Source: Streptomyces sp. NA04227 (GTDB lineage: Bacteria; Actinomycetota; Actinomycetes; Streptomycetales; Streptomycetaceae). Taken from it: a DNA stretch of 64,000 nucleotides. Of this stretch, positions 37,681-53,711 are shown piece after piece. Made by a program: the position numbers and the translations under genes. The stretch is from the NCBI RefSeq assembly GCF_013364195.1, contig NZ_CP054918.1, positions 3,647,001 to 3,711,000 on the forward strand, in the 5' to 3' direction. The notes under the pieces were generated by a model. That model had not been told where the DNA came from and searched no databases. It saw only the letters and a program-made list of their open reading frames with translations. Every line of letters starts with the position of its first letter. Within the stretch, counting starts at the first letter, position 1.

Positions 37681-39285
37681 CTACACAGGCACCAACCGCC
37701 CGACCAGTTCACCGAGTTGGCGCACGCTGCGGCACGGGTGCATGTCGACCAGGGCCGCGTAGTGCAGGGCGGCCGAGTCGCCCGTGCCCCACAGGGAAAC
37801 GGGTTCGGGGTTGAGCCACTGGACGGTGCGGGCGCGTTCGCCGATCTCGCGCAGGGCGGGCAGGTTGGGGTCCCAGTTGTTGGTACGGGCGTCGCCGAGG
37901 ATGAGGACCGTGGTGCGCGGGCCCACCGCCGACAGATGGCGCTCGGCGAACTCGCCCAGCGCCGTGCCGTAGTCACTGCTCCCGTGCCAGCCGGAGACCG
38001 TCGCCTCGGTGAGGATGCGCTCGCCCAGCCGCTCCGGGTCGCCGCTGCCCGCCGCCTTCACGAAGTCGGTCACCTCGTCCGTACGGTTGACGAAGGCGTA
38101 CACCCGCAACTTGCTGAACTGGTCCCGCATCGCCTGGACGAGCAGCATCGTGAAGTGCGCGAACCCGGCCACCGAGCCGGACACGTCGCAGAGCAGCACG
38201 ATCTCCGGACGGGCGGGCCTGCGACGCCGGTACGCCAGACTCAGCGGCACCCCACCGGTCGACAGCGAACGGCGCAGACTGCGGCGCAGGTCGACGGTGC
38301 CGCGCGCCGCCCGGCGCCGCCGCGCCGCGAGCCGGGTGGCCAGCTTGCGCGCCAACGGCTGTACGGTGCGCCGGAGTTCGGCCCGCTTACGGGCGTCGGT
38401 GAGACGGAAGTCCGTCTCGTCGGCGCTCAGTGAGCGGGCCCGCGCGGCGACCTTCTCCCGCCCCTGCCGCTCGGCCACCCGCCGCCGCGCCTCGGCCCGT
38501 ACCTCCTGCCGGAAGGCCTCGATACGGCGCCGGATCTCGTCCGGCTCGAAGCGGTCCACGTACTGATCGGCCTGCCCGGCCCGTCCGCCCTGCCCAGCCT
38601 GTCCGCCCTGCCCGCCCTGTCCGCCCTGCCCGGACGCGCCTTCACCGCCTCCACCGGCCCCACCGCTCCCACCGCTCCCACCACGATTCGCCCGCAGCGC
38701 CGCGAGCACCCGGGCGAGGAGGATCTGCGGCTGGACCCGGCTCAACGTCTGGTGCGCCGACCAGCCGTCCGTACCGGAGCCGGACCCGTACCGCCCGAAC
38801 GCGCCCACCGCCTCCCGCGCGAGCCGGGCCCGCGCCCCGCTGTCGTTCTCGGCGAGCGCGGCGGCGATGCGGTCCCGCAGGTCTTCGAGGAGGGCGCGTT
38901 CGTCCAACTGGGATGGTGGGGAAGGCAGTTCGGGCGCATCGGCGACGTCGGCGGCGGCGTCCGGGGACACGTCCCCCTCCGGCCGACCGTCACCGAGCAG
39001 GTCGTTCACGCCCAACGGGAAGTACACGTCGAACACCGCGTCGAAGACGGTGCGTTGGCGTTCGGCGCTGAGCAACACAGCGGCCAGTCCGGCCCGTACG
39101 CGCTCGCGGTCGCGCAGTCCGAGCAGTGCGAGCACCTCGGCTGCCTGGGCGCTCTCGCCCGGTCCCACGCGCATGTCGTGGCCGCGCAGCGCCTGGACGA
39201 AGTCGGTCAGCCGCTCGGTGAGGCCGTCGACGGGGGCCGCCTCCACGACACCCGCGCTCTCGGCTCCGTCGCCGCCCGCGCTCAT
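37681..39285 (-). CDS. VWA-domain protein (CoxE-like), MoxR partner
   Basis: 534 residues; its ATG overlaps the stop of the MoxR gene. N-terminal helical CoxE region (FVQALRGHDMRVGPGE ... VFDAVFDVYFPLG), a central Gly-rich low-complexity segment of G-G-S/G-Q-G repeats (~205-245), and a C-terminal von Willebrand A domain with metal site D-V-S-G-S (LLCDVSGSVAG) and a TTVLILGDARTNNWDP loop. MoxR-VWA pairs act as chaperone-like complexes that mature or insert metal cofactors. The target here is unknown. Confidence 0.9.
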   Translation of the reverse strand: MSAGGDGAESAGVVEAAPVDGLTERLTDFVQALRGHDMRVGPGESAQAAEVLALLGLRDRERVRAGLAAVLLSAERQRTVFDAVFDVYFPLGVNDLLGDGRPEGDVSPDAAADVADAPELPSPPSQLDERALLEDLRDRIAAALAENDSGARARLAREAVGAFGRYGSGSGTDGWSAHQTLSRVQPQILLARVLAALRANRGGSGGSGGAGGGGEGASGQGGQGGQGGQAGQGGRAGQADQYVDRFEPDEIRRRIEAFRQEVRAEARRRVAERQGREKVAARARSLSADETDFRLTDARKRAELRRTVQPLARKLATRLAARRRRAARGTVDLRRSLRRSLSTGGVPLSLAYRRRRPARPEIVLLCDVSGSVAGFAHFTMLLVQAMRDQFSKLRVYAFVNRTDEVTDFVKAAGSGDPERLGERILTEATVSGWHGSSDYGTALGEFAERHLSAVGPRTTVLILGDARTNNWDPNLPALREIGERARTVQWLNPEPVSLWGTGDSAALHYAALVDMHPCRSVRQLGELVGRLVPV

Positions 39286-40202
39286 GCCGTGGCGCTTGTC
39301 GCCGTGGTCAGCTTCTGCGCGGCCTTGGTGATGTCGTCCTGGTGCTTGAGGATCACGCCGAGGCTGTCGCGTACGACGTCCTCGTCCAGGGCGTCCGCGC
39401 CGAGCGCGAGCAGGGTCTGCGCCCAGTCGATGGTCTCGGCCACGGAGGGTGCCTTGCGCAGGTCCATGGCGCGCAGTGCGGCGATGGTACGCACGACCGA
39501 GTCGGCGAGCACGTCGCCGAGGCCGGGCACCTTCAACTGGACGATGCGCTGCTCCAGTTCGGGCTCGGGGTAGTCCAGGTGCAGGAAGAGGCAGCGCCTG
39601 CGCAGGGCCTCGGACAGTTCGCGGCTGGCGTTGGAGGTGAGCAGGACGAAGGGCCGGTGCGCCGCCGTGATGGTGCCAAGTTCCGGCACGGTGATCTGGA
39701 AGTCGCTGAGCACCTCCAGGAGCAGGGCCTCCACCTCGATGTCGGCCTTGTCCATCTCGTCGATCAGGAGCACCGAGGGCTCCGTACCGCGGATCGCCGT
39801 GAGCAGCGGCCGGGCGAGCAGGTACTCCTCGCTGAAGATGTCGCTACGGGTCTCGTCCCAGGCCTCGTCACGCCCGGCCGTGATCCGCAGCAGCTGCTTG
39901 GCGTGGTTCCACTCGTACAGGGCGCGCGACTCGTCGATGCCCTCGTAGCACTGGAGCCGGGTCAACGGCGCGGCGCCGACCCGGGCCACCGCCTTGGCCA
40001 GTTCGGTCTTGCCGACCCCGGCCGGTCCTTCGACCAGCAACGGCTTGCCGAGCCGGTCGGCCAGGAACACGGTCGTCGCCACGGACGGCGAGGCCAGATA
40101 CCCCACCTCGGCGAGGCGGTCGGCGACATCGTCCACGGACGCGAAGAACCCGGCGGCGTGCCCACCCGGCGCACCCTTCGCGCTTGCTCCGCCTTCGCTC
40201 AT
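39282..40202 (-). CDS. MoxR-family AAA+ ATPase
   Basis: 306 residues, ATG 40202. Walker A EGPAGVGKTELAKAV, Walker B SVLLIDEMDKAD, sensor LLTSNASRELSEALRRRC. Complete and of normal length. Coupled by a four-base overlap to the VWA gene, so the two subunits are made together. Confidence 0.94.
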   Translation of the reverse strand: MSEGGASAKGAPGGHAAGFFASVDDVADRLAEVGYLASPSVATTVFLADRLGKPLLVEGPAGVGKTELAKAVARVGAAPLTRLQCYEGIDESRALYEWNHAKQLLRITAGRDEAWDETRSDIFSEEYLLARPLLTAIRGTEPSVLLIDEMDKADIEVEALLLEVLSDFQITVPELGTITAAHRPFVLLTSNASRELSEALRRRCLFLHLDYPEPELEQRIVQLKVPGLGDVLADSVVRTIAALRAMDLRKAPSVAETIDWAQTLLALGADALDEDVVRDSLGVILKHQDDITKAAQKLTTATSATA

Positions 40203-40446: not shown

Positions 40447-40484
40447 CTTTTTCTGCGTATGCGTAGGACCCGACCCCCTGATTG
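40447..40484 (+). promoter_or_regulatory. protease-regulon element, snapalysin copy
   Basis: CTTTTTCTGCGTATGCGTA with CTGATTG starting exactly 23 nt after the G of GCGTAT (40455 to 40478). It lies 104 nt before the snapalysin ATG. Same layout as at 46476-46513, 47923-47960, 49872-49909 and 53051-53088. The rest of the 40203-40588 gap holds G-rich GGGGGGCACGG repeats and nothing else. Confidence 0.65.
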
Positions 40485-40588
40485 TCGTGCTCATGCGGCG
40501 GCGCCCAAAGTGCTCGCCATCGGACAGGAGTCACGGCCGGAAACCGGTCCGTGCGTCGTGTCCCAAGACGAACAGGAGAGCACCCCCC

Positions 40589-41206
40589 ATGAGTTCTCAC
40601 CGACGAGGCCTGCGCATCGCCCTGGGCCTGGCGGCAGTGGCCACGGCCGCGGTCCTTCCCGGCACCGCGCAAGCGCAGAGCACGGGCACCCCCACGACCG
40701 TCCGCACCCCGGCGGTCGCCTTCGACCACGGCGACGGTCCCGCCTCGGGCAAGGCGTTCCTCGAAACCGTCCTGCGCGTGGCCGAGGTCAAGCAGGACGC
40801 CGAGCCCGGCCTGCAGACCGTGACGATCACCTACAACGACGATCGAGCCCCGAGCTACCAGGACGCCATCGACGCCAGTACCGAGATCTGGAACGGCGCC
40901 GTCGAGAACGTACGACTGGAAGAGACCGGCGGCGAGGGCGACTTCAGCTACCGCGAGGGCGAGGGCGACGGTTCGTACGCGACCCGCGATCTGGTCTTCC
41001 TCGACAACAACCAGATCCAGGGCGAGGGCTTCGACGCCACCCGCGTCGTCGCCCACGAGACGGGACACATCCTCGGTCTGGACGACAACTACGAGGGTCC
41101 GTGCAGCGAGTTGATGTCCGGCGGCGGTGCGGGTACGGAGTGCACCAACGCCCGGCCGAACGAGGACGAGCGCGCACGTGTGGACGAGATCTGGGCGGAC
41201 CGGTAG
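40589..41206 (+). CDS. snapalysin-family (M7) zinc metalloprotease
   Basis: 205 residues, ATG 40589 with AGGAGAG nine nt upstream. Signal peptide to ~A29 (AQA), short propeptide, then a domain with HETGHILGLDDNY: zinc ligands H156, H160 and the snapalysin-type D166, catalytic E157, Met-turn around M176 (ELMSGG), and two cysteines (C172, C185) for the conserved disulfide. Secreted small neutral protease, normal length. In other streptomycetes a LysR gene sits next to it; here none does, and the shared element upstream suggests other control. Confidence 0.93.
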   Translation: MSSHRRGLRIALGLAAVATAAVLPGTAQAQSTGTPTTVRTPAVAFDHGDGPASGKAFLETVLRVAEVKQDAEPGLQTVTITYNDDRAPSYQDAIDASTEIWNGAVENVRLEETGGEGDFSYREGEGDGSYATRDLVFLDNNQIQGEGFDATRVVAHETGHILGLDDNYEGPCSELMSGGGAGTECTNARPNEDERARVDEIWADR

Positions 41207-41296
41207 CAGACCGGTAACCGCGAGAGCCCGGACACCGTGCCGGTGGGCCTGAACTCCCGGCCCCGGCACACGAGTTCACGAGTTCACGAGTTGACC

Positions 41297-44200
41297 TCAC
41301 CACCGTGTGCCGGGGTCGTCGTACGCGGGGCCGTCCTGCGCGGGGCTGTCGTACGCGGGGCCACCCTGCCCCGGGTCGTCCTGCGGCGGGACGCCCTGCG
41401 CCGGGTACGACGACAGTGGCCGACTCCCCGTCCAAGAGCCCGGGAGTGGCTCGGTGAGCCCGGTCCGGGTCTGTACACCGGTTTTGCGCATGGCACGCGC
41501 GATGTGCTGCTCGACGGTGCGCGGGGACAGGTGCAGGGTCACCGCGATCTCCTTGTTGGTCAGGCCTGACGCGGCGAACCGGGCGACCTCCTCCTCGCGC
41601 GGCGACAGCATGCAGCCGTAGCTCGGCCGACCGCGCGGGCGCCGTTCCTCCTGCGGCTGGTGCGCCCGTAGCGTCGCGCGGACCCGGGCGGCGTCCCAGA
41701 GCGCACCGAGGGCACTCAACTCGCTTACGGCATCGCGCAGTTCGCCGAACGCCTCGTCCTGGTCGGGCTTGCGTCCCGCGTCGTTCTGGCCGGGCATCCG
41801 TCCTGGTTCATCCTGGTCGAGCTTCCGTCCCGGCTCGTCGTGATCGGGCTTCCGTCCCGGCTCGTCCGGGTGGGACTTCCGTCCCTCCTCGTCCACGGCG
41901 AGGGCGACATGTCCGGCCCGCTCCGCCGCCAGGGCGGCCATATAGGGGCGGGGCAGTTCGGCGTACGCGCCGCGCGCGCTGTGGAAGTGCGCCAGCGCCT
42001 CCGCCCGCTCGCCCCGCGCCTCGGCCAGGGCCGCGCGGCACCAGTCGAGCGCCGCCGCCGCGACAGGGGCGTCGCGGTCCCGGATTCCCGCGGCGTACTC
42101 GGCCACCATTGCCTCCGCCTCCTCCGCGCGCCCCGCGCCCAGGACGGCTTGGAGAGCCCACGGCGCCACCTCGGCGGCCCAGACCCACACCCCTTTCTCG
42201 CGCAGTCGCCGCCACGTACGGGCCGCCTCCCGGGTCGCCTCCTCGGACTGCTCGCGGGCGAGCGCGAGGCGAATGCGCAGTCCGGACGCCAGCGCCAGCA
42301 AGGTGTGCGGGGCACTGGATTCGCGGGGTGCGGCCGGTCCGTACAGGAGGGACTTCACCTCGGTCCATTCGCCGCGCGCCAGCGCGAGCGCGGCGTGCGA
42401 CAGGGTCGGCAGGCCGGTGATCATCGACATGCGCTCGGTCTCGTCGGCCAGCGCCCGGGCGCGTTCGGGCAGACCTCGCCAGTCGCCGGTCATCCAGTCG
42501 CAGAGCAGCCGGGCGCCGCGTCCGCTCGCGACGCTGTAGGGGGTACCGGTGCGCTCGGACAGGCCGATGCCCTCGCTCAGGAGTTCCCTGGCCGTGCGGT
42601 AGTAGCCGGTGATCACGGCGTCCTCGCCCGCGTTGACCAGGCCGCGTGCCGCATGCTGACGGCAGGCGAGGATCTCGCTCTCGCGCGGGAGGCGTTCCAG
42701 CAGCGGCCATCCTCCGGCGTCACCGGTGGACAGCATCACACTGATCCGGTTCGCCAGGGTCGCGGCCTTGGCCACCTCGTCGCCGGACCGCTCGGCCGCC
42801 GCCTCGGCCCTCGTCAGCCACTTGATGTTCTCGGCGAGAGACAGGCCGGGCCAGTCCGGCATCGCCAGGTGCGACATCGCCCGGCTGGCCAGGGCGGGAC
42901 GCTCGGCCAACTCCTCGACAGCGCGCACGAGTTCGGCCTTGCCCCGCAACGGGTCCCCCGCCTGGTTGCTCAACAGCATCCCGAGGTCGAGGCGGGCCTC
43001 GCCGCGCACGCCCGGCGCGAGGTCCGGGTCGTCGACGATCTGGCGCAGTACCTCCAAGGCACGGTCCGAGCGGGGACCTTCGAGCGCGTTGTGCGCCAGT
43101 ACGATCGCCAGCCGGTCACGGAACTCCCGTGGCACGGCGCTCACGGCCAGCGTCCGCTCCAGCAGCCGGATCGCCGCCAGGTGGTCGCCCCGCGCCTCGT
43201 ACTGCCGGGCCGCGCGCTCCACGGCCCGCAGCCACTGCCGGACCTGGCGGCCCCCTCTGCGGTGATGTGCGACGCGCTCCCACGGCACCGGATGCGCACG
43301 CACCAGGAAGTCGGCGGCGGCCCGGTGCAGCCGCTCCCGGGTCGGCCCCGGCAGAGACTCCCGTACGGCCTTCGCCGCCAGCGGCACCGCGAAGCCGTAA
43401 CCCGCCTCACCCGCCGCACCGCACTCCTGGAGCACACCGGCCGCCAACGCCGCGATCAGCGGCTCCCGTTCACCGGGCCCACCAGGCCCATCGGGCCCAT
43501 CGGGCCCATCGAGCCCCGCCACCACGGCCAGCTCCCGGCCGCCGACCGGCTCGTCGAGCACCGCCGCCGCCCATACGACGGGTCGGTACCGCTCGGGCAG
43601 GCCGGCCAGTCGGCCGAGCGTCAGCTCCGACAGGCGGGCCGGCACCCCGGCCTCGTCCACATCCTCGGACGTACGGCGCCGGGTGTCGCCCGCGACGGGC
43701 GCGCACAACCGCAGCAGATCCACGGCGACTTGGGCATTTCCGCCCGCACGCTGATACAGCCGGGCGGCGAAACCCGGGCCGCACAGCTCCCCGCCCAGCG
43801 CCGTGTGCGCCATGCCGGTGACCTGGGCAGCCGTCAGCGCCCCGACACGCTGCCGCACCACGGTCAGTTCCGCCGGGTAGTCGACCGCCCACCCCCACGG
43901 CAGCCCCGGAACGGGCAGTTCCTCGGGGCGGTAGGTGAGGATCAGGGTGAACGCCGCCGCCTCCGCCCCTGCCTCCGGACCCGTACCCGCACCCGCTCGC
44001 CGCAGGCAGCGCCACAGCATCCGTCGGGTCTCGGCGTCGGCCAAGTGCATGTTCTCGACCAGCAGTACGCACGGTTCGGCGGCTGCGAGCACGGGGGCGA
44101 GCACCGAGGCGAGATCCTCAACAAAGGCGTCCGGAAAGGCTTTTGGCGGTTCCGACGCGTGCGGCGGCTTCGGGGCGTCCGAGGACGTTGTCCGCACGCC

Positions 44201-44449
44201 CTCGGCGGTGCACACGGCCACGGTCCGCGGCAGACCCGCGAACACGTCGACCTCCAGCGCGCGCCGTACCAGCCTGCTCTTGCCCGAGCCCGCGGCGCCC
44301 TCGACGAGGAACAGCACCGGTCCGGGCACCGAGGCACGTATGTGTGTCAGCCGCGACCACGGCTGCCGGGGGGCCTGCCCGTCACCGTGTCCGCCGCCGA
44401 CACCCGCCGCGCCGTCGTCCGGCCTGTTCGCGTACGTATGCATCAGCAT
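41297..44449 (-). CDS. LAL-type LuxR-family regulator 1
   Basis: 1050 residues, ATG 44449 with GGACAGG just upstream. N-terminal STAND ATPase with Walker A EGAAGSGKSR (~49-58) and Walker B CVLLVENMHLAD, long helical TPR-like middle, and a C-terminal LuxR helix-turn-helix (LSPREEEVARFAASGLTNKEIAVTLHLSPRTVEQHI in parts: GLTNKEIAVTLHLSPRTVEQ) at ~945-990. A Gln/Asp/Pro repeat tail of ~50 residues follows the helix-turn-helix, which is unusual. A second repeat, D-E-P-G-R-K-P-D units, sits at DNA ~41750-41885. It is a close paralogue of the regulator at 50121, and both share an R-P-R-G-R-P-S-Y lead into the DNA-binding domain. Confidence 0.9.
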   Translation of the reverse strand: MLMHTYANRPDDGAAGVGGGHGDGQAPRQPWSRLTHIRASVPGPVLFLVEGAAGSGKSRLVRRALEVDVFAGLPRTVAVCTAEGVRTTSSDAPKPPHASEPPKAFPDAFVEDLASVLAPVLAAAEPCVLLVENMHLADAETRRMLWRCLRRAGAGTGPEAGAEAAAFTLILTYRPEELPVPGLPWGWAVDYPAELTVVRQRVGALTAAQVTGMAHTALGGELCGPGFAARLYQRAGGNAQVAVDLLRLCAPVAGDTRRRTSEDVDEAGVPARLSELTLGRLAGLPERYRPVVWAAAVLDEPVGGRELAVVAGLDGPDGPDGPGGPGEREPLIAALAAGVLQECGAAGEAGYGFAVPLAAKAVRESLPGPTRERLHRAAADFLVRAHPVPWERVAHHRRGGRQVRQWLRAVERAARQYEARGDHLAAIRLLERTLAVSAVPREFRDRLAIVLAHNALEGPRSDRALEVLRQIVDDPDLAPGVRGEARLDLGMLLSNQAGDPLRGKAELVRAVEELAERPALASRAMSHLAMPDWPGLSLAENIKWLTRAEAAAERSGDEVAKAATLANRISVMLSTGDAGGWPLLERLPRESEILACRQHAARGLVNAGEDAVITGYYRTARELLSEGIGLSERTGTPYSVASGRGARLLCDWMTGDWRGLPERARALADETERMSMITGLPTLSHAALALARGEWTEVKSLLYGPAAPRESSAPHTLLALASGLRIRLALAREQSEEATREAARTWRRLREKGVWVWAAEVAPWALQAVLGAGRAEEAEAMVAEYAAGIRDRDAPVAAAALDWCRAALAEARGERAEALAHFHSARGAYAELPRPYMAALAAERAGHVALAVDEEGRKSHPDEPGRKPDHDEPGRKLDQDEPGRMPGQNDAGRKPDQDEAFGELRDAVSELSALGALWDAARVRATLRAHQPQEERRPRGRPSYGCMLSPREEEVARFAASGLTNKEIAVTLHLSPRTVEQHIARAMRKTGVQTRTGLTEPLPGSWTGSRPLSSYPAQGVPPQDDPGQGGPAYDSPAQDGPAYDDPGTRW

Positions 44450-44578
44450 CAGCCTGTCCAGATCGATGTGCCTTGCCTAGCCGACGAAGCCGGACCTGAA
44501 GAAGTGCTCCCTCCCCGTCGGCAGCCCTGGATCGGTGGGCGCTGCCGTACCGCGGAGGGAGCACAGATGGAGCGCGGA

Positions 44579-44616
44579 GGTTTCTGCCGGTGACCGGAAG
44601 GCCACCGGCAGAAACC
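44579..44616 (-). terminator. terminator of the Trp/Pro-tailed subtilase
   Basis: Perfect 14-bp stem GGTTTCTGCCGGTG / CACCGGCAGAAACC with a 10-nt loop, 54 nt past the subtilase stop. It separates that gene from the LAL regulator. Confidence 0.8.
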
Positions 44617-44669
44617 CCCACTGTGAGGTCAGAGCGCCCTGAGGTCAGGAGCGTTCCGGAGTCAGAGCG

Positions 44670-46247
44670 TCAGGCTCCAGGAGTCGAGGCGTTGTCGCCG
44701 CCCGTCCACGGCCAGGGCCACGGCTCCGGCCACGGGAACGGCCACGGCTCCGGCTCGGGCTCGGGGTCCGGCGTGGGCTCCGGGTCCGGCTGCGGGTCGC
44801 CGCTCTTGCCGGTGACGGTGGCCGTCGCGTCGGCCAGGCCCGCGCCGCAGCCGCCGTTGCACGTGCCGGGCAGGGCACGGGCGCTCTTCTTGATGGCGGC
44901 CTCGACGTCGGCGGGGCTGATGCCGGACTTGGTCTGGTACAGCAGGGCCGCGAGGCCGGCGATGTGCGGGGCGGCCATGCTGGTGCCCTGGTAGGCCTTG
45001 TACGTTTCGCCGCCGGGCTCACGGGCTCCGTCGTTCACGGTCGACAGGATGCCGTCCTCCGGGCTGACGTGCGTCTCGCCGCCGGGAGCGGCGATGTCGA
45101 CGACATCGCCGTAGTTGGAGTAGCGGGCCAGGCTGCCGTCCCGGTTGGTGGCGGCGACGGAGATGACCTTGTCGCAGCTGGAGGGGGTGAAGCCCGCCGC
45201 GTCGGCGTTGCTGTTGCCCGCGGCGACCACGACGGTGGTGCCCCGGCCCGCGGCGCCGTCGATGGCGCTCTGGGTGCCCTGGTCGCAGGCTCCGTTGCCG
45301 CCCAGGCTCATGTTGATGACGTGGGCGGGCTTCGGGTTGTCCGGCACGCCCTGGACGGCGCCGCCGGAGGCCCAGGTGATCGCGTCGATGATGTCCGAGG
45401 TGCTGCCGCCGCACTTGCCCAGGACGCGCACGGGCTGGACGGTCGCGTCGTACGCGATTCCGGCGACGCCCTTGCCGTTGTTGGTGGCGGCGGCGACGGT
45501 ACCGGCGACGTGCGTGCCGTGCCAGGAGCTGCTGGTGTCGTTGGCGGGTACGGGGTTGCCGTGCGCGTCGGTGCCGCATTCGCCGGCGGTGAGCCAGTCA
45601 CCCGGGTCCGCGGCGTCGCTGTCGCGGCCGTCGCCGTCGTTGGCCACACGCGTGTCGGAGATGAAGTCGTAGCCGTCGATGACGTTCGCGGCCACGTCCG
45701 AGTGCGCGACGTGGCCGGTGTCGATGACCGCGACCCTGACGCCCTTGCCGGTGGCCTTGTCCCACGCGCCCGGCACGTTCATACCGGCGGTGGACTCGAA
45801 GAGGTCCCACTGCTGTTTGTACAGGGAGTCGTTCGGCTCGGCGGCCATGGCGTACACGCGGCGGTCGGGGACGACGTAGGCGACGTCCGGGTTCGCCTCG
45901 AAGGCGGCCAGAACCTCGTCGAGGTCCTTCTGGCCGAGCTTGTCGCCGAGGTCGATCAGCGCGGCACCCGTACCCAGGCGGCGCTCGAAGTCGGCACTGT
46001 GGCCCGCCTTCTTGAGAGTGGCCCTGGTGTTCTTCTCCGCCTCGGCGTTGGACTTCGCCGCAGCGGATTTCGACTTGTAGCCGACGATGAGGCGCTCGAC
46101 CGCCACGGAGGGCGCGGCGTCGGAATCGGCGGCGGGCGGGGCGGCCGAAGCGGTGGGCGTGACGAGGGAGGGCACTATCGCCCCGCCTAGGAGGGTGGCC
46201 GCTGCCGCGGCCACCAGGGATATGCGCAGGGGTCTGAAACCGGTCAC
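44670..46247 (-). CDS. secreted S8 subtilase with Pro/Glu/Trp-rich tail
   Basis: 525 residues; GTG 46247 with GGCAGGA five nt upstream, which replaces a longer Arg-rich reading. Signal peptide to ~36, propeptide (VERLIVGYKSKSAAAK), catalytic D176 (VAVIDTGHV), H244 ([10 protein letters not shown]), S423 (GTSMAAPHIAG), four or more cysteines. After the catalytic domain (~480) comes a tail of D-P-E-P repeats turning into alternating W-P pairs (~500-515), then a short Ser/Thr end. Its promoter region has the protease-regulon element and is shared with ridA-like 46604. Confidence 0.94.
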   Translation of the reverse strand: MTGFRPLRISLVAAAAATLLGGAIVPSLVTPTASAAPPAADSDAAPSVAVERLIVGYKSKSAAAKSNAEAEKNTRATLKKAGHSADFERRLGTGAALIDLGDKLGQKDLDEVLAAFEANPDVAYVVPDRRVYAMAAEPNDSLYKQQWDLFESTAGMNVPGAWDKATGKGVRVAVIDTGHVAHSDVAANVIDGYDFISDTRVANDGDGRDSDAADPGDWLTAGECGTDAHGNPVPANDTSSSWHGTHVAGTVAAATNNGKGVAGIAYDATVQPVRVLGKCGGSTSDIIDAITWASGGAVQGVPDNPKPAHVINMSLGGNGACDQGTQSAIDGAAGRGTTVVVAAGNSNADAAGFTPSSCDKVISVAATNRDGSLARYSNYGDVVDIAAPGGETHVSPEDGILSTVNDGAREPGGETYKAYQGTSMAAPHIAGLAALLYQTKSGISPADVEAAIKKSARALPGTCNGGCGAGLADATATVTGKSGDPQPDPEPTPDPEPEPEPWPFPWPEPWPWPWTGGDNASTPGA

Positions 46248-46475
46248 GGTTCCTGCCTTTCGCGGATGGACCCCGGTAGGAGTCCTGCTCTGTAGGGGGT
46301 GGAGTGCGGACGAGGGCCACGTCGGACGCGAGCCCCCAGGGGTGCGGTGCGCTCGCGTCCGACCAGCGGCCCCACGCCGCGCCGCCCGGCCGCGCATGCG
46401 GACACGTCGCGTCTCCCAAGAACGTGCCGCCGACCGGGCGTTGGCTGGAAACCTAGGAGCGCGGCAGGGATTCAC

Positions 46476-46513
46476 ATATCCGGCGGCAGGGGGATACGGA
46501 TACGCAAACTAAG
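46476..46513 (-). promoter_or_regulatory. protease-regulon element, subtilase copy
   Basis: Minus strand CTTAGTTTGCGTATCCGTA, with CGGATAT starting 23 nt after the G of GCGTAT. It is 229 nt upstream of the subtilase start, inside the divergent 46248-46603 interval; nothing else was assigned there. Confidence 0.6.
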
Positions 46514-46603
46514 CTCGTTCCTCCACCTCGCGACGCGTCGGAGGGTCGTGCGGTGGGGGCAAATTCCGGTGCGTGCCGGGGGCGGATTGGTCAGACTCGC
46601 GGC

Positions 46604-47014
46604 ATGACAGCGAAGATCCGCCGCATCAACCCCGATCAGTTGCACGAGACGCCGGGCTACCACCACATCACCGTGGTGGAGACCGGCCGCACGGCTTATC
46701 TGGCGGGGCAGTGCCCGCTCGACCAGGGCGGCTCCCTCGTCGGCCCGGGCTCCCTGGAGGCGCAAGTCGACCAGGTCGTCGTGAACGCACTTGCCGCCCT
46801 TGCGGCGGTGAACGCTCAGCCGCAGCACGTGGTGCGGTCGGTGATCTACGTGCGCAGCGACGACAGGGCGGACCTGGGCCTCGCCTGGCAGCGACTCACC
46901 GCTTCCGCCCTCGGGCCGGCCTTCACGTCCGCCAGCACGCTCTTGGGGGTTGCCCAACTGGGCTTCACAGGGCAGCTGGTCGAGGTGGACCTCACCGTCG
47001 CACTGCCCGACTGA
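46604..47014 (+). CDS. RidA/YjgF-family protein
   Basis: 136 residues, ATG 46604. RidA pattern: YHHITVVETGRTAYLAGQCPLDQ, AQVDQVVVNALAALAAVNAQPQHVV (fragments), RSVIYVRS and LVEVDLTVALP. RidA proteins deaminate reactive enamine/imine intermediates of PLP enzymes, but the catalytic Arg is not in the usual I-P-R context here, so it may be one of the divergent subgroups. Divergent from the subtilase. The 47015-47267 gap holds no gene. Confidence 0.85.
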   Translation: MTAKIRRINPDQLHETPGYHHITVVETGRTAYLAGQCPLDQGGSLVGPGSLEAQVDQVVVNALAALAAVNAQPQHVVRSVIYVRSDDRADLGLAWQRLTASALGPAFTSASTLLGVAQLGFTGQLVEVDLTVALPD

Positions 47015-47267
47015 GCGGCTGCGGTGCACTCGGCTCGCCCGCCCGCCCACTGACCAGGGCGCAGCCAAGTACGGGCGTATTCAAAGGCGTTGGCGTGTGG
47101 GCGTACCCAGTAACTTCGGCCCGGCCGTCGGCGCGGGGGACGTCTATGGCCGGGCCGGGTTCCGCCGTGGGGGGCGGGTCTGGGGTGGTGCAGGTGGTGC
47201 GGGGTGGTGTGGGGTCTCGGGCCGGACTCGGAGCGGCTGCTCCTGCCAACCCGCTTGCTCGCTTGCT

Positions 47268-47816
47268 CTACAGGGGCGTTGAAGGTGCGGCGGGCAGTGG
47301 GACGGCGAGCCGTTGATCGCGGGACTCGTGGGACTGCGGGGCGGCGACGGCGAAGGTGGCCGTGACCGAGGTGCCCCGGCCCGAACGGTGGATCTCGCAG
47401 TGCGTGGTGTGGGCGCGGACCAGGTTCAGGCCCCGGCCACCGCACGCGACCGTGCTCGGTGTCTTCCGTCCCCGGGCGGGGACAGGGGACGGCAGCCACT
47501 GTCCGGAGTCGACGACCTGCACCGTCAGGGTGCCGGGACGGCCGGTCAGCGCGAGGGTCAGGTCGGGGCTGCCGCTGTGCGTGACCACATTGGTGGCGAG
47601 TTCGGTGACGACCAGGCACAGGGCGTACTCGACGTCGTCGGACAGGTCCCAGGCCCGCGCCGCATGCCGAACGAAGCGACGCAGCCGCGGGACGGACTCC
47701 GGGGTTGCCTCCAGGGTGCACAGGGCCGACCCGAGGACCGCGGACGGTTCCCCGTCTACGGCGGGGCGGGTCCGGGACGTGGGAACCGCCGCCGCTCGGG
47801 GCTGGGTGGTGATCAC
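47268..47816 (-). CDS. HATPase_c anti-sigma-type ATP-binding protein
   Basis: 182 residues; GTG 47816 with GGGGAGGAG seven nt upstream. GHKL kinase-fold motifs: N-box LVVTELATNVVTHSG, G1 VQVVDSGQW, G2 GGRGLNLVRAH. It matches the large Streptomyces family of stand-alone serine-kinase/anti-sigma-like regulators. It carries the same upstream element as four secreted hydrolase genes nearby, so it may be a regulatory member of that regulon (inference). Confidence 0.9.
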   Translation of the reverse strand: MITTQPRAAAVPTSRTRPAVDGEPSAVLGSALCTLEATPESVPRLRRFVRHAARAWDLSDDVEYALCLVVTELATNVVTHSGSPDLTLALTGRPGTLTVQVVDSGQWLPSPVPARGRKTPSTVACGGRGLNLVRAHTTHCEIHRSGRGTSVTATFAVAAPQSHESRDQRLAVPLPAAPSTPL

Positions 47817-47922
47817 TGGGATGCTCCTCCCCGTGTTCCGGAGCCTGGTGTTCCGGGAGCCTCGGGATCGTTGTGCCGAAGCTTTCTGTGCTTCCAGGTT
47901 TGCCGCGTCCGTACCGGCATCT

Positions 47923-47960
47923 CAATCAGGGCGGAATGAAGTACCGATACGTAAATAAAT
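47923..47960 (-). promoter_or_regulatory. protease-regulon element, HATPase copy
   Basis: Minus strand ATTTATTTATTTACGTATC then CTGATTG starting 23 nt after the A of ACGTAT, ending 107 nt before the GTG start. The T-rich block is an ATTT repeat (AAATAAAT on the plus strand). Confidence 0.65.
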
Positions 47961-48036
47961 AAATAAATGGGTTGTATCGGACACCCGGAACCACCGGAAC
48001 TACCGGATACCGCAACCAGGGGTGCGGGCGGGACCG

Positions 48037-49740
48037 TCAGCACGTCGTGCCGGGGCGCACCTTCTCGAGGGTGAGGAGGTAGTCGTCGACGGCCTTGTCC
48101 ACGCAGGCGTCCCCACGTCCGTACGCGAGGTGTCCGACGCCCTCGTACGTGAGGAGCATGCCGCCCGGCAGTTGCCCGGCCAAGCTCTCCGCCTCGTGGT
48201 ACGGGGTCGCCGGGTCACCCGTGGTGCCGACGACCAGCGTGGGCGGCAGGCCGGGAGCCTTGACGCGGTGCGGCTTGGTGGCACCCTTGATCCACTTACG
48301 GCAGCTCATCTCGTCCAGCACGCTCGAAGTGCCGGAGAGACCCGTCTCTTCGTGCGCCTCCTGCAACAGGTCCCAGTACGCCTCGGGGCTGCGCGGGTGG
48401 GGTATGTCGAGGCAGTTGACCGCCATCAGGGCCTCTTCACTGTTGTCCGGGGCCTCTTCACTGTTGTCGGCGGGCTCGGTGCTGTCGTCGGCGGCGTTCC
48501 GCGCGGTCCGGGTCTGGGCCGTCTCGTCGAGTTCTTCGTCTTCTTCCTCGCCGTCGCCTTCCTCGCCGTTGGGCTCCTCGCCGTCGAGTTCCTCGCCGTC
48601 GGAGAGCTTGAGCAGTAGGGAGCCGTCACCCTCGTCGTACGCCTGCCACAGGGCGTCGGACAGGTCGGTCCACGAGTCCTCCGGTGCGTACATCGACTCG
48701 CTGACCACGGAGTGCAGCGTCGCGATGTCCACCGTCTCGTCGGAGTCGGACACCTGCAGCGGCTCTTCGGTCACCGAGTCGTAGAGCGAGTCCACGACGT
48801 CGCGGATCTCCTCCGGTGTGGTGCCCGGGCAGCTTTCGCCGGCGTAGTCGGCACACAGCTCGGCGTAGTCGTCCAGGGACTGCTCGAATCCGGCGCCCAT
48901 GCTCAGCGCGCGCTCACGCCAGGTGAGGCTCGGGTCCACGGCGCCGTCGAGGACCATGGCGCGGACCCGGTGCGGGAACTGCTCCGCGTACCGGCTTCCA
49001 AGGTACGTGCCGTACGACCAGCCGAGGTAGGTGATCCTCCGGTCGCCGAGGGCCGCGCGGAGTACGTCGACGTCGCGCGCGACGTCGGGGGTGCCGACAT
49101 GCCGTAGCAGCGATCCGCTGCCCGCCGCGCACCCGTCCGCGTCCTCGTCGGCGTAGGCGAGGGCGCTGTCGCGCTCGGCGTCGTCCTGCGGATAGAGAGT
49201 CAGTCCGGCGTCGGCCGCGGCGCCCGCCCCTACCTCGCCCTCGCCCGCACCCTCACCGTCGCCTTCGCCCTCACTGCCCCCGGACTCGTCGTAGTCGCAG
49301 GTCACCGCGGGCTTGCTGCCGCCGACGCCACGCGGGTCGAAGGAGACGATGTCGAAGCGCTCCCGTATGCGCTCGCCGAGGTCGTCGGCCGTGCCGCCCT
49401 TGAGGTCCTCCACGCCGGAGGCCCCGGGCCCGCCCGGGTTGTAGACCAGGGACCCCAGACGCCGCTCACGGTTGGTGGCCGGGTGGCGGACCAGCGGCAG
49501 GGTGAACGTCTTCCCGCGCGGTCGGGCGTAGTCCATGGGCACCGTGAGCGAGGCGCACTGCAGCCCTTCCCCGCAGTCCTTCCAGTGCGGCTTCTGCCCG
49601 TAGAACCGGCGCAGCTCCGGTGCGTGCGCGGGGTCGCGGTCCTGCGCACTCGACGGGAGGAGCCCGCAGGAAGTGAGCAGCAGCAGGCCCGCCGTCGCAC
49701 ACCCCGTACGAAAAGTGCGCGTGCGGTTGCTGAACGTCAT
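48037..49740 (-). CDS. tripeptidyl-aminopeptidase-like lipoprotein (S33 alpha/beta hydrolase)
   Basis: 567 residues, ATG 49740 with GGAGAG five nt upstream. Lipoprotein signal with lipobox LTSC (Cys ~25). Alpha/beta hydrolase with oxyanion stretch YNPGGPGASG, nucleophile GWSYGTYLGSRY, late acid TTGDPATPY and catalytic His GVGHLAYGRGD, matching SlpD/SlpE-type mycelium proteases. Two acidic low-complexity inserts occur: G-E-G repeats (~175-190) and a longer E/D-rich stretch with twin D-N-S-E-E-A repeats (~415-475). Expected to trim N-terminal tripeptides at the cell surface. Confidence 0.92.
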   Translation of the reverse strand: MTFSNRTRTFRTGCATAGLLLLTSCGLLPSSAQDRDPAHAPELRRFYGQKPHWKDCGEGLQCASLTVPMDYARPRGKTFTLPLVRHPATNRERRLGSLVYNPGGPGASGVEDLKGGTADDLGERIRERFDIVSFDPRGVGGSKPAVTCDYDESGGSEGEGDGEGAGEGEVGAGAAADAGLTLYPQDDAERDSALAYADEDADGCAAGSGSLLRHVGTPDVARDVDVLRAALGDRRITYLGWSYGTYLGSRYAEQFPHRVRAMVLDGAVDPSLTWRERALSMGAGFEQSLDDYAELCADYAGESCPGTTPEEIRDVVDSLYDSVTEEPLQVSDSDETVDIATLHSVVSESMYAPEDSWTDLSDALWQAYDEGDGSLLLKLSDGEELDGEEPNGEEGDGEEEDEELDETAQTRTARNAADDSTEPADNSEEAPDNSEEALMAVNCLDIPHPRSPEAYWDLLQEAHEETGLSGTSSVLDEMSCRKWIKGATKPHRVKAPGLPPTLVVGTTGDPATPYHEAESLAGQLPGGMLLTYEGVGHLAYGRGDACVDKAVDDYLLTLEKVRPGTTC

Positions 49741-49871
49741 GAACTCTCCGTGGTGCGTCAGGTCGTACGGCTGCTGTGCCGAAGGAGCGGTAGCCGCCGG
49801 GGAAGGGGAAGAGCAAGGCCGGTGGGCGCTCGGCCTGCCCATGGAGGCTAGGCAAGGTGAGAGGCGGTGCG

Positions 49872-49909
49872 CGTTCCGGATCCGGACGATCACTGATACG
49901 CAAAAAAAG
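49872..49909 (-). promoter_or_regulatory. protease-regulon element, aminopeptidase copy
   Basis: Minus strand CTTTTTTTGCGTATCAGTGA; the second block at +23 is CGGAACG, a weaker match. It ends 132 nt before the aminopeptidase ATG in the 49741-50120 interval shared with LAL regulator 2. A GGCTAGGCAAGG at 49846-49857 also occurs before LAL regulator 1. Confidence 0.6.
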
Positions 49910-50120
49910 ACAGGTCGTACGGCAGGTCGTAGGCCGGGGCGTAAGGCAGGTGGTCCGTCCGTGGGTTCCCGGACCGGCCGGCCGTTTGCGACGGCACCCC
50001 GCCTTGCCATGATGGATTCACGGGTTCGACTCGCAGGCGGCGCCCGGCGCCCGGCGCCACGCAAGGGGCCCGCGGGGTCCGTCGGCCACCGGCGGACCGC
50101 CGAACGCGCGGGAGAGGCCC

Positions 50121-52937
50121 ATGGCCACGGTGAGTGACTTCTTCTGGGAGCGGCGGCTGCGGCGGACGCTCGCCGGAGAGGAATCGCAGCGGCTGCTGGT
50201 TCTGGTCGAGGGGGCGGAGGGGTCCGGCAAGAGTCGGCTGGTGCGGCGGCTGGCCCGCTTGCAGGAGGCGACCCGGGTACCGCGCGTGCTGTGGCAGTGC
50301 GGCCGAGGGGACGCGTCCGAGATGCCGGAGGTGCCCTCCGACGGTCCGCTGCTTCTCCTGGTGGAGGACGTCCACCGCGCCGGTGCCGACGAACTGGCTT
50401 ACCTGCGCGGCCTGTTGGAGCATCCCGCGCCGGGCCTTGCGGCGGCGGTGACGTACCGGCCGGAGTCCCTGGCCGAACCCGGGTCGCCGCTGGGATCGCC
50501 CCGCCCGCGCTATCCGGCCGAACTGGTGGTGCTGCGGCACCGCGTCGAGCCCTGGAGCCGCGAGCAGGTGCGGCAGGCCGCCGTCGCGGCGCTCGGTGAG
50601 CGGTGCGCGGACGAGGCCGTGGCGCGGTTGCACGAGCGCTCGGGCGGCTCGGCGCAGGTCGTGGCGGACCTGCTCGCGGTACTGCGGGACAGCGCGCCGA
50701 AGCGGTGCACCGCCGATGCCGTGGACGCCGTCGGTGCCCCGGTGCGGCTGGCCGGAATGATGCGCGACCGCCTCGCCGCCGTCCCGGCCCGGCACCGGGT
50801 GGTGGTGTGGGCGGCGGCGGTCCTCGACGAGCCCGCCACCCGCCGCGAACTGCTCACCGTGGCGGGTCTGGGGCCCGAGCACGGCCGGGCGGCACTCGTC
50901 GCGGCAACGGCTCGGTCCGCGCTGGTCACCGACGCCGAGGGCAGGTACGTGCTCCCCGTTCCGTTGGGCTCCGTCGCCGTACGGGAGGGGCTGCCGTGGC
51001 CGGTGCTCCAGGACCTGCACGGCCGGGCGGCGGACGTCCTGCTCGGCAGGCAGCCGGTGCCGTGGGCGGTCGTCGCCCGGCACCGCGGAGTCGCGGGGCA
51101 TGTGCGCGGCTGGCTGCGTGCGGTGGAGCAGGCCGCCCGGGAGTCCGCCGAGGAGGAGCGACACCAGGAGGCCGTCACGCTCCTGGAACGGACCCTCACC
51201 TCGCCGCTGGTTCCCCGGTCGGCCCGGGCCCGGCTCTCCCCGATGCTGGCGCGCAGTGCCACGGTGGGTCTGCACGTGGAGCAGAGCGTGGAGCTGCTGT
51301 CCCAGATCGTGGAGGACGAGACGCTGCCGGAGTCCGTCCGCGGCGAGGTACGCCTCAACCTCGGCCTTGTGCTCACCAACCAGGTGGGCGGGGGTCAGCT
51401 GGGGTGGCCCGAGCTGGAGCAGGCCGCGGAGGAACTGCGCGAGCACCGGCCGGACCTCGCCGCCCGCGCCATGATCGCGCTCGCCGCCACCAGCTGGCCC
51501 GGCCAGTCCCTCGACGTCCACCTGGCCTGGATGGCACGGGCCGAGGAAGCGGCGAACGCCTCCGAGGACGAGGCGATCCGGGTGAACACCGCCCTGACCC
51601 GGGCCTGGGTCGAGTGCAGTTACGGCAACCCACGGGGCTGGGACCTCCTGAGGTCGCTCCCGGCGGACAGCCCCGACCCCGAGCTCCGCAGGGAGGTGGC
51701 GCGCTGCCTGTGCAACATCGCCGACTCGGCGGTGTGGCTGGGCTGGTACGACCGTGCGGAGAAACTGCTCGCCGACGGCGTGGCACTGGCCTCCGGGTCG
51801 CCCTACACCGAGTACGGGGCGCGGGGCACCAGACTCGTACTGGACTGGAGCACAGGGCACTGGACGGGACTGGCCGAACGGTGCGAGAGCTACCTGGCCG
51901 AGGGCGACAGCGCGGAGGGACTCTCCGGGGACGGCCACTACGTACTGGGGCTGCTGGGCCTGGCGCACGGCGAGTGGTCACGTACGACGTCCTGGCTGTC
52001 GGGCGTGGCGGACTCCTCGAACGACCTCGCGGCCGGGGCGTCCGCCGCGCTGGTCCGGTTGTCGCTGGCACGCGAGGACACCTCCGCCGCGGTGTCCGAG
52101 GCCAGGGCCGCCTGGCAGCGGGTGGCGGAGAAGGCCATGTGGGTGGGCACCTCCGACCTCCCGCCACGTGCGGTGGAGGCCGTCGCCCTGGCGGACGGAG
52201 CAGCAGCCGCCCAGCAGATGGTGGACGCCTTCGCGGCGGGCATCGACGGCCGCGAAGCGCCCGCGGCACAGGCCGCGCTGATCTGGGCTCGCGCGGTCCT
52301 GGCAGAGGTGACCGGGGCGCCGACCGAAGCCGTACCGCTGTACCGGGCGGCGGCCGAGGCTTACGCGGCCCTGCACCACCCCTACGCCGAGGCTTTGACC
52401 GGGGAGGGCGCCGCTCGGTGCGTATTGGGGGCGGAGGCTGGGGCTGGGGTGGGCTCGTCCGGGGACGGCTCGTCCGGGGTGGGCTCCTCCGGGGACGGCT
52501 CGTCCGGGGTGGGCTCCTCCGGGGACGGCTCGTCCGGGGTGGGCTCCTCCGACGACGGCCGGGCAGGCGCCACCGCCACGGCGGGCACCTCCGACGAGGA
52601 CCGGGCACGCGCCATCGACGAACTGAGCGCCGCCGTGGAACGGTTCACGTACCTGGGCGCGAACTGGGACGCCGCGCGTGCCCGCGCCCTGCTGAGAGCA
52701 CACCGTCCCGAGAAGCGTCCCCGTGGGCGGCCCTCCTACCACGGAGACCTCTCGCCACGTGAGCGCGAGGTGGCGGAGCTGGCGGCCACCGGGCTGACCA
52801 ACCGCGAGATCGCGAGCACCCTCCACCTGTCGCACCGCACGGTGGAGCAGCACATCGCCCACGCCATGCGGAAGGTCGGCACGGACTCCCGGCGGGGGCT
52901 GGTGCCGCGTGCTGGGGCCGAGGGCTCGGGGGGTTGA
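50121..52937 (+). CDS. LAL-type LuxR-family regulator 2
   Basis: 938 residues, ATG 50121 with GGAGAGG ~8 nt upstream. Walker A EGAEGSGKSR (~30-39), Walker B LLLLVEDVHRAGAD, TPR-like helical middle, a Gly/Ser/Asp repeat (30-bp DNA unit), and a C-terminal LuxR helix-turn-helix (SPREREVAELAATGLTNREI, LHLSHRTVEQHIAHAMRKVG). It is paralogous to the regulator at 41297 along its whole length but has a shorter N-terminus and no long tail. Divergent from the aminopeptidase and just upstream of the small metalloprotease, so it is a candidate activator of the shared element (inference). Confidence 0.9.
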   Translation: MATVSDFFWERRLRRTLAGEESQRLLVLVEGAEGSGKSRLVRRLARLQEATRVPRVLWQCGRGDASEMPEVPSDGPLLLLVEDVHRAGADELAYLRGLLEHPAPGLAAAVTYRPESLAEPGSPLGSPRPRYPAELVVLRHRVEPWSREQVRQAAVAALGERCADEAVARLHERSGGSAQVVADLLAVLRDSAPKRCTADAVDAVGAPVRLAGMMRDRLAAVPARHRVVVWAAAVLDEPATRRELLTVAGLGPEHGRAALVAATARSALVTDAEGRYVLPVPLGSVAVREGLPWPVLQDLHGRAADVLLGRQPVPWAVVARHRGVAGHVRGWLRAVEQAARESAEEERHQEAVTLLERTLTSPLVPRSARARLSPMLARSATVGLHVEQSVELLSQIVEDETLPESVRGEVRLNLGLVLTNQVGGGQLGWPELEQAAEELREHRPDLAARAMIALAATSWPGQSLDVHLAWMARAEEAANASEDEAIRVNTALTRAWVECSYGNPRGWDLLRSLPADSPDPELRREVARCLCNIADSAVWLGWYDRAEKLLADGVALASGSPYTEYGARGTRLVLDWSTGHWTGLAERCESYLAEGDSAEGLSGDGHYVLGLLGLAHGEWSRTTSWLSGVADSSNDLAAGASAALVRLSLAREDTSAAVSEARAAWQRVAEKAMWVGTSDLPPRAVEAVALADGAAAAQQMVDAFAAGIDGREAPAAQAALIWARAVLAEVTGAPTEAVPLYRAAAEAYAALHHPYAEALTGEGAARCVLGAEAGAGVGSSGDGSSGVGSSGDGSSGVGSSGDGSSGVGSSDDGRAGATATAGTSDEDRARAIDELSAAVERFTYLGANWDAARARALLRAHRPEKRPRGRPSYHGDLSPREREVAELAATGLTNREIASTLHLSHRTVEQHIAHAMRKVGTDSRRGLVPRAGAEGSGG
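52451..52550 (+). repeat. 30-bp in-frame minisatellite in LAL regulator 2
   Basis: Three nearly identical 30-bp units (starts 52451, 52481, 52511) plus a 10-bp partial, encoding G-S-S-G-D-G-S-S-G-V. Only one base differs among units, so expansion is recent and copy number may vary. Confidence 0.92.
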
Positions 52938-53050
52938 GGGCTCAAGGCTCGGAGGGTGAGGCCTCGGGGGGCCTCACGGTTGAGGTCTGGCGCCCGGGTC
53001 GGCCCCGGGACCCGGGCTCCGGGCTCCGGGCTCCGGGCTCTGGGCCCGCC

Positions 53051-53088
53051 CTTTTTTACGTGTGCGTGTTTCGGCCTCTACTGATACG
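53051..53088 (+). promoter_or_regulatory. protease-regulon element, small metalloprotease copy
   Basis: CTTTTTTACGTGTGCGTGTT with CTGATAC starting 23 nt after the A of ACGTGT (53058 to 53081). It lies 99 nt before the ATG. The remainder of 52938-53186 has GGGCTCC repeats (53013-53041). Confidence 0.62.
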
Positions 53089-53186
53089 AGTTCGGCCGTG
53101 GCCGGTCCTACGTTTCCGCCCACTACCGCCGGTTGTCCCTTGGGCGTTCCCGCCCAGCCGGGCGGCAGCACGCGAAGGGATACGCC

Positions 53187-53711
53187 ATGTTCCGACTTAC
53201 CGCCAGATGCGTGCTCGCGTTGCTATCAACGCTGTTCCTGCTGCTGGTGCCCGGCACGGCGAGTGCCACTGGGCTCAGCGGCAGCTCCGTCCACGTGAGC
53301 GCCCCTGCCGAGCAGGTGGCCGCCGAGGAAGCAGACGAGGAAGAGGGAGAGGCAGAGGAAGAGGCCTTCGAGTGGAGCTATCACATCGGCTCCTCCTGTG
53401 AAGGTCTCGAGGCCGACATCCGGGAAGGCGCCGACTTCTGGGAAGGCGCACAGGAGACGGAGGGCAGCGGGACCCGTGTCAACTGCACGGAGGACATGAT
53501 CCAAGGCTGCGGTGACGACGACTCCGAGGAGGGGGAGTCGGAGTACATCGGCTGCAACTGGGGCGACGGAACCATCTCCGTGTCCACCCAGGCCGACGAC
53601 TTCCCACTGATCGTCGCGCACGAGTTCGGCCACAACTGGTACGAGCACTCGGACGTGAGGTGCATGGGCTGGGCATCCGAAGACGCGGTCATGGCACCGA
53701 CCATGTGCTGA
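53187..53711 (+). CDS. small secreted metzincin-like protease with atypical zinc motif
   Basis: 174 residues, ATG 53187 with GAAGGGA ~7 nt upstream. Signal peptide to ~27, acidic propeptide-like stretch (D/E-rich, ~44-60), then a short domain with HEFGHNWYEHSD (H145-D156) and a Met-turn-like VMAPTMC at the very end. Relative to snapalysin (HExxHxxGxxD), the turn Gly is Tyr and the third ligand falls at position 10 (His) or 12 (Asp), not 11. Six cysteines. Probably a secreted protease distantly related to M7; no closer family recognised. Confidence 0.75.
   Translation: MFRLTARCVLALLSTLFLLLVPGTASATGLSGSSVHVSAPAEQVAAEEADEEEGEAEEEAFEWSYHIGSSCEGLEADIREGADFWEGAQETEGSGTRVNCTEDMIQGCGDDDSEEGESEYIGCNWGDGTISVSTQADDFPLIVAHEFGHNWYEHSDVRCMGWASEDAVMAPTMC

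Follow-up and report, generated by a model that had tools for sequence, protein, structure and literature searches.

The closest described systems known to us are built around MalT-like regulators or regulators with an LAL-type part. In Actinoplanes SE50/110, the MalT-like LuxR family regulator ACSP50_3915 has a TCATCC-5 nt-GGATGA motif at 17 starts, which overlaps -35 and has its 3' end 34.4 nt away from the start (PMC7567727). E. coli MalT requires ligand-driven oligomerisation for binding to its promoter sites (PMC10427625), and its boxes, GGGGA(T/G)GAGG, are located near -35 (quoted in PMC7567727). SARP-LAL regulators, PimR among them, have a SARP domain at the N terminus and are associated with heptameric direct repeats (PMC5930380, PMC3367932). 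Here, we use computation to define a two-block DNA element, with the consensus TTNTTT-GCGTATCCGTR-N11/12-CKGAT, in a protease region of Streptomyces sp. NA04227, together with its promoter geometry, its link to one subfamily of large ATP-binding regulators of the LuxR family (LAL), and the genes behind its sites. The window is the whole stretch of 64,000 nt that was analyzed, positions 3647001-3711000 of a 7.9-Mb single-contig genome. We believe, at a probability of roughly 85%, that the element serves as operator for one subfamily of MalT-like LAL activators, which would switch on peptidase genes.

The ACSP50_3915 system resembles the present one in having a MalT-like regulator inside the region controlled, a second regulator there too, and many local promoters with ATCC/GGAT-type arms; block 2 of our element also shares GGAT near the position of the Actinoplanes motif. 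The arms here, however, are TATCCG and CGGATA and lie 13 to 14 nt apart instead of 5, the outer block is longer and flanked by Ts, the targets are mostly peptidases and an HATPase, and the host is a Streptomyces. With E. coli MalT, the system shares a STAND ATPase with a C-terminal DNA-binding domain, but block 2 (CCGGATAKG) has only the GGAT core in common with the MalT box, an outer block is present, and there are no sugar genes among the assigned targets. The SARP-LAL proteins are likewise Streptomyces regulators with an LAL-type part that act at repeated sites, whereas the LALs of the window match no SARP-type Pfam family and have a GerE helix-turn-helix (HTH) at the C terminus. None of the papers listed by our searches of the open-licence PubMed Central literature, judged by title and the start of the abstract, dealt with the element or an LAL-protease link, and none of the open-licence papers there that contain the motif letters, judged by title, concerned Streptomyces regulation. 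The kind of site (a MalT/LAL operator) is known; its sequence, spacing, T-tract, and protease targets appear to be new.

A two-block element at a fixed promoter position

The first-pass annotation of the window had listed five two-block elements with a fixed spacing of 23 nt, and all five were indeed found at their places. The positions that it gave hold as the low end of each element, but it had drawn block 1 too short: the full form in the window is TTNTTT followed by RCGTRTNNGTR. RCGTAT (RCGTGT once) begins at 40455(+), 46505(-), 47952(-), 49901(-), and 53058(+), preceded each time by a T-rich run, and block 2 (CTGATTG, CGGATAT, CTGATTG, CGGAACG, and CTGATAC, in the same order) starts 23 nt after the first base of block 1 in all five. 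The sites and their putative -10 boxes are as follows.

40449..40484, + strand: site 1, facing the snapalysin gene; T-run 40449-40454, block 1 40455-40465 GCGTATGCGTA, block 2 40477-40484 CCTGATTG
40505..40511, + strand: putative weak -10 of site 1 (CCAAAGT), at a position conserved across sites, lacking a TA start
46476..46511, - strand: site 2, facing the subtilase gene; T-run 46511-46506, block 1 46505-46495 GCGTATCCGTA, block 2 46483-46476 CCGGATAT
46450..46455, - strand: putative -10 of site 2 (TAGGTT); TANNNT stands at the same place in 31/48 independently collected sites
47923..47958, - strand: site 3, facing the HATPase gene; T-run 47958-47953, block 1 47952-47942 ACGTATCGGTA, block 2 47930-47923 CCTGATTG
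47896..47902, - strand: putative weak -10 of site 3 (CAAACCT), positioned as in other sites
49872..49907, - strand: site 4, facing the tripeptidyl-aminopeptidase (TAP) gene, in the divergent intergenic region between TAP and LAL2; T-run 49907-49902, block 1 49901-49891 GCGTATCAGTG, block 2 49879-49872 CCGGAACG
49845..49850, - strand: putative -10 of site 4 (TAGCCT), from its sequence
53052..53087, + strand: site 5, facing the gene of a small HExxH protein; T-run 53052-53057, block 1 53058-53068 ACGTGTGCGTG, block 2 53080-53087 ACTGATAC
53109..53114, + strand: putative -10 of site 5 (TACGTT), from its sequence

RCGTRTNNGTR occurs six times in the window, five of these copies being the element sites. 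The sixth, at 44336(+), was rejected as a copy of the element; it is located within the LAL1 gene and lacks a T-run.

A genome-wide search had been called for, and it was run with the pattern TTNTTTRCGTRTSNGTR-N12-CKGA. The own genome contained only the five window sites at up to 1 mismatch, none at 2, and seven others at 3, against three matches of the backwards pattern at up to 3 mismatches; because the pattern was built from the five sites themselves, this result demonstrates rarity and carries no independent P value. At up to 1 mismatch, 392 genomes of the genus, the own genome included, yielded 27 matches in 21 genomes. Of these, 22 lay outside the own genome, against three matches of the backwards control. 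A matrix made from the five window sites alone found further sites in the same clusters, the reversed control reaching at most 13.0 bits. Conspicuous T-runs at 70% G+C, and flanks shared by related strains, could make one suspect a likeness due to chance or to an inherited flank without function. We regard this as the least probable of the explanations considered, hardly to be credited given the genome-wide rarity of the element, the low backwards controls, the concentration of information in the blocks and the -10, and the presence of the element before nonhomologous genes.

Alignment of 35 sites (5 from the window, 2 from Streptomyces physcomitrii, and 28 from motif-first loci) placed the information peaks at the T-run, GCGTATCCGTR, and CCGGATAKG. 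A TAGGTT-like peak at 50-56 was weaker, and the remaining positions had low values; at the -35 position, this alignment showed no TTGACA-like conservation. In a second set, the 48 sites of at least 25 bits collected LAL-first (see below), TANNNT follows the C of CKGAT by 27 to 28 nt (29 or 30 after the start of the 10-nt block 2 matrix) in 31, and it occurs at any other of the offsets 0-53 only once. Three of the five window sites have TANNNT 50 to 51 nt after the start of block 1. Two forms of block 2 can be distinguished among the 48: a CGKAT-like form (n = 33; TANNNT in 29) and a CTGATTG-like form (n = 15), which has TANNNT in 2 and a box starting with (C/G)A at the -10 place in 12. Window sites 1 and 3 are of the latter form. 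In the cases read, the form of block 2 tracks the target gene, the CTGATTG-like form being found at HATPase promoters. The two blocks can be viewed as an inverted repeat (TATCCG/CGGATA, 19 to 20 bp from center to center) or as a direct repeat (CGTAT/CGKAT, 21 to 22 bp).

When the first T of TANNNT is set as -12, block 1 comes to lie at about -62 to -52 and block 2 at about -40 to -33. A half-site next to or over -35, a fixed distance to the -10 (31/48), and the lack of a consensus -35 are what is expected of an LAL-type operator in the class II position and, read from the sequence, such an arrangement is that of an activator which touches RNA polymerase next to -35. The first-pass annotation had also considered an unusual sigma factor, in which case the blocks would be the -35 and -10 of an extracytoplasmic function (ECF)-type promoter, possibly with the HATPase as anti-sigma factor. 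The 17 nt from RCGTAT to the second block do equal a normal promoter spacer, and the HATPase resembles RsbA/RsbW-type proteins. Yet an HrdB-like -10 follows both blocks at a fixed distance, which puts these at about -62 and -40, and the spacer between GTR and CKGAT is not constant (N11 in 32/48 and N12 in 16/48). Furthermore, block 1 with its T-run exceeds the length of a -35, and no separate sigma gene was present among the scanned proteins near the sites, the whole window not having been annotated; sigma-region-4 matches in the LALs coincide with the GerE HTH and score lower. Given the position of the -10 and the variation of the spacer, we reject the sigma promoter, which we consider very improbable.

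One LAL subfamily and the genes behind the sites

The element and a particular group of LALs lead to each other. Starting from the motif, 17 of the 22 matches outside the own genome lie in loci (of up to 3 kb) that hold a homologue of an LAL, subtilase, HATPase, or small protease of the window, as judged by tblastn with the window proteins. L054 is a doubtful member of the 17: the HATPase match there extends over 11% of a different protein, the site stands before a gene for a HAMP-repeat protein, and an LAL was not seen. In the larger stretches around linked sites (L076-L090), 13 of 15 hold an LAL of this group. The remaining five matches (L055, L061, L064, L070, and L073) were set aside as background: their 3-kb loci contain no linked gene, and an LAL is missing from 20 kb. 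In three of the five 20-kb stretches (L091, L093, and L095), distant homologues of HATPase or subtilase (31 to 38%) do occur. In S. physcomitrii, a cluster of LAL1, snapalysin, and HATPase homologues (L045) has the element before the orthologues of snapalysin, at 13543(-), and HATPase, at 9543(-).

Starting from the LAL, the 109-aa C terminus of LAL2 (arm plus HTH) was used as query against 81 genomes of the genus and, after that, 295. Once matches already in the motif-first set had been excluded, this gave 49 loci of up to 20 kb each, in which sites were sought with a matrix derived from 35 others. A site of at least 25 bits was present in 28 of 29 loci with an LAL score of at least 95 bits and in 1 of 20 below (Fisher P, 2e-11), the 95-bit cut-off having been chosen after the table was seen and the counts not being independent events, since the loci share descent (the 48 sites form 39 clusters at >80% identity). 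In reversed DNA of the 49 loci the maximum was 14.7 bits. C termini of the close group (E <= 1e-24) were found in 4 of 197 genomes across the class, all of this genus. With motif-first leading to LAL/protease/HATPase loci and LAL-first leading to the motif in nearly all close loci, the sequence evidence favors the LAL branch of the first-pass annotation.

Close LALs carry a short arm, GRP, directly before GerE, in 24/24 linked LAL C termini that were read and in 29/29 close LAL-first ones; both window LALs have PRGRP. A second LuxR-type match in L086 (38.6% identical) was excluded from the arm count. The arm is visible by eye in L161, the low-scoring locus with a site, the scripted test being limited to the first 48 aligned residues. 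Among loci without a site, L121, L122, and L123 have other residues at the GRP position, and L151 has the letters GRP in another context.

Because an LAL of one subfamily is the DNA-binding protein found with the element, it is the best candidate for its binder. Conceivably, the element is read by a different DNA-binding protein, with its gene elsewhere, and the LALs are mere neighbors or regulated targets; the latter would agree with the LAL gene itself standing behind a site in some loci. We nevertheless think this improbable, if somewhat less so than the sigma promoter, because the presence of a site follows C-terminal similarity among LALs of the same genus (28/29 versus 1/20) and because activation from this promoter position is already known for a MalT-like regulator (PMC7567727). 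The own genome points the same way. The loci of LAL1, LAL2, and a third LAL (C1:2214808, 1.5 Mb away) have a site, the last (N11, 43.4 bits, block 1 from C1:2211939(-)) before a divergent HATPase gene whose product is 45% identical to that of the window, whereas the fourth LAL (C1:7144074; 51 to 54% identical) has no site within 10 kb.

Elsewhere in this genome, an element of 38.8 bits at C1:3734121(+), 34 kb from the nearest window site, precedes an oligopeptide-binding-type lipoprotein gene (SBP_bac_5), and a weak one of 16.5 bits at C1:3795444(-), 95 kb away, with a poor block 2 and TAGCTT, precedes the gene of a second protein of the small HExxH type, a paralogue with 56% identity to that of the window. 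Hence, the local proteolysis regulon that had been proposed is not purely local, with two clear sites and one weak site outside the window. The C1:7829760 region, at 15.0 bits, was rejected as a site.

Target genes were called as the best same-strand tblastn match within 1.3 kb. Behind the 33 sites outside the window (motif-first, S. physcomitrii, and three from the own genome), these were HATPase (6), LAL (5), subtilase (5), small HExxH protein (4), a 107-aa protein of no known family (4), alpha-lytic-type protease (2), snapalysin (1), and a substrate-binding protein (SBP; 1). For the 48 LAL-first sites they were HATPase (12), subtilase (9), LAL (7), alpha-lytic-type protease (4), the 107-aa protein (3), and HExxH protein (1).

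Several observations weigh against assigning the element to this LAL subfamily as its operator, in addition to the late choice of the 95-bit cut-off and the shared descent of the loci. At a site threshold of 20 bits the contrast is 28/29 versus 3/20. One close-group locus, L145, has no site, and GRP is present with the site absent in L145, L153, and the Amycolatopsis locus L046. The 109-aa query includes the arm, so the effects of arm and HTH are not separated. A wider reversed control (849 kb, extra spacer length) reached 25.5 and 19.6 bits in the Chloroflexi locus L052, all others being at most 17.1, and a pattern match without an LAL (L092) scores 26.6 bits when a 13-nt spacer is allowed. 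The stretches L076 and L078 lack an LAL, although the L078 genome has one on another contig. TA is absent from the -10 of two of the five window sites. Finally, no gene was assigned behind 12 of the 48 LAL-first sites and 5 of the 33 sites outside the window.

Genes of the window and candidate transcripts

The genes around the five sites are listed below.

40589..41206, + strand: snapalysin (M7) gene; Pfam PF02031, E 3.9e-39; NCBIfam snapalysin 211.7 bits, under its cut-off of 300
41297..44449, - strand: LAL1, a 1050-aa LuxR-type ATPase regulator; GerE PF00196, E 6.2e-15 (residues 948-998); Walker A GAAGSGKS at residue 51; PRGRP arm 938-942
44670..46247, - strand: subtilase (S8) gene; PF00082, E 9e-55
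47271..47816, - strand: HATPase_c_2 protein with an RsbW/RsbA-like ATPase domain; PF13581, E 3.6e-20; NCBIfam RsbA match under cut-off
48037..49740, - strand: tripeptidyl-aminopeptidase-like lipoprotein (abhydrolase plus TAP-like C-terminal domain); PF00561, PF08386
50121..52937, + strand: LAL2, a 938-aa LuxR-type ATPase regulator; GerE PF00196, E 5.8e-16 (residues 877-928); Walker A GAEGSGKS at residue 31; PRGRP arm 867-871
53187..53711, + strand: small HExxH protein (HEFGHNWYEHSD) with a signal-peptide-like start, from its sequence; relatives with the element in L083, L087, and L090 and, weakly, the own paralogue L097

LAL regulators are large, roughly 900 to 1100 aa, and LAL1 and LAL2 conform in size, C-terminal GerE HTH, and N-terminal Walker A, their Pfam AAA_16 and nSTAND matches being under the cut-offs. 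Four of the gene labels of the first-pass annotation stand. The fifth, "small metzincin," does not: the protein has no Pfam or NCBIfam family match and, compared with the canonical metzincin motif, HExxHxxGxxH/D, the G is missing from HEFGHNWYEHSD and its acid comes one residue late. A VWA_CoxE and AAA-ATPase gene pair at 37681-40202 adjoins the snapalysin gene and lacks the element.

At several subtilase or likely subtilase promoters, for example in L078, L080, L082, L086, and L088, an additional conserved stretch, roughly CCACCGGYYGGTCGAACG, directly follows the -10. A variant element, AT-ACGTATANGTR plus CGGATATT without a T-run, was seen at L077 5466(+), L081 13584(-), L084 13679(-), L085 14124(-), L117 10782(-), and L118 9452(+). 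A conserved reading frame lies behind five of these six copies (104 to 112 aa; 330 aa in L085), and its product in L081 has no Pfam match.

In five loci, a site with a good -10 is followed by a stretch without a convincing same-strand open reading frame (ORF): L116 9786-9892(-), L129 10414-10512(+), L130 10460-10557(+), L133 10459-10562(+), and L137 10456-10566(+). Frames on the opposite strand are better conserved there than same-strand ones. Each stretch contains a long hairpin of about 100 nt (shorter in L129) closed by GTGCCCGGG and CCCCGGGCAC, placed at the predicted start in L116, L129, L130, and L133 and further down in L137. From its sequence, this hairpin is a candidate for a small RNA belonging to the regulon. 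No support comes from the covariation term (+2.16), fold z-scores range from -0.05 to -5.75, and Rfam at the gathering threshold had no match in six loci. In L134, at 12165(+), and L146, at 4823(-), the sequence after a site likewise has no convincing ORF; it is short and ends in a GGGCCGCGGC...GCCGCGGCCC inverted repeat, the hairpin having been folded whole for L146 only; these may represent further candidate short transcripts.

A possible mechanism and its significance

We envisage that a signal sensed by the LAL, a STAND-type ATPase with a C-terminal GerE HTH, would lead to DNA binding. The protein might then contact two half-sites about two helical turns apart, GCGTATCCGTR in block 1 and CKGAT in block 2, and, once bound, could take the place of the absent -35 by recruiting ordinary sigma-HrdB RNA polymerase to the -10 (TANNNT). 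Peptidase genes would thereby be turned on, as would the small HATPase gene and, in certain species, the gene of the LAL.

AT-hook arms read the AT-rich minor groove. Possibly, a Streptomyces branch of MalT-like activators gained an AT-hook-like arm (PRGRP/PPGRP) directly before the GerE HTH, and this arm reads TTNTTT next to the outer half-site. In combination, the arm and the HTH might then form a new operator code for a regulon of secreted proteases, one that has its own HATPase partner and, in some species, includes a structured noncoding transcript. We put this forward tentatively and would not be surprised to see it fail; phylogeny is a confounder of the link between arm and T-tract, and L145, L153, and L046 have GRP with no site.

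Sites or targets are known, as far as we are aware, for few LAL regulators of Streptomyces. The present analysis links one DNA code to one LAL subfamily and to the genes that follow its sites across many species, which makes the targets of otherwise unannotated regulators predictable from sequence. It also suggests a switch for protease production, and the model of recognition by an arm plus an HTH is directly testable.

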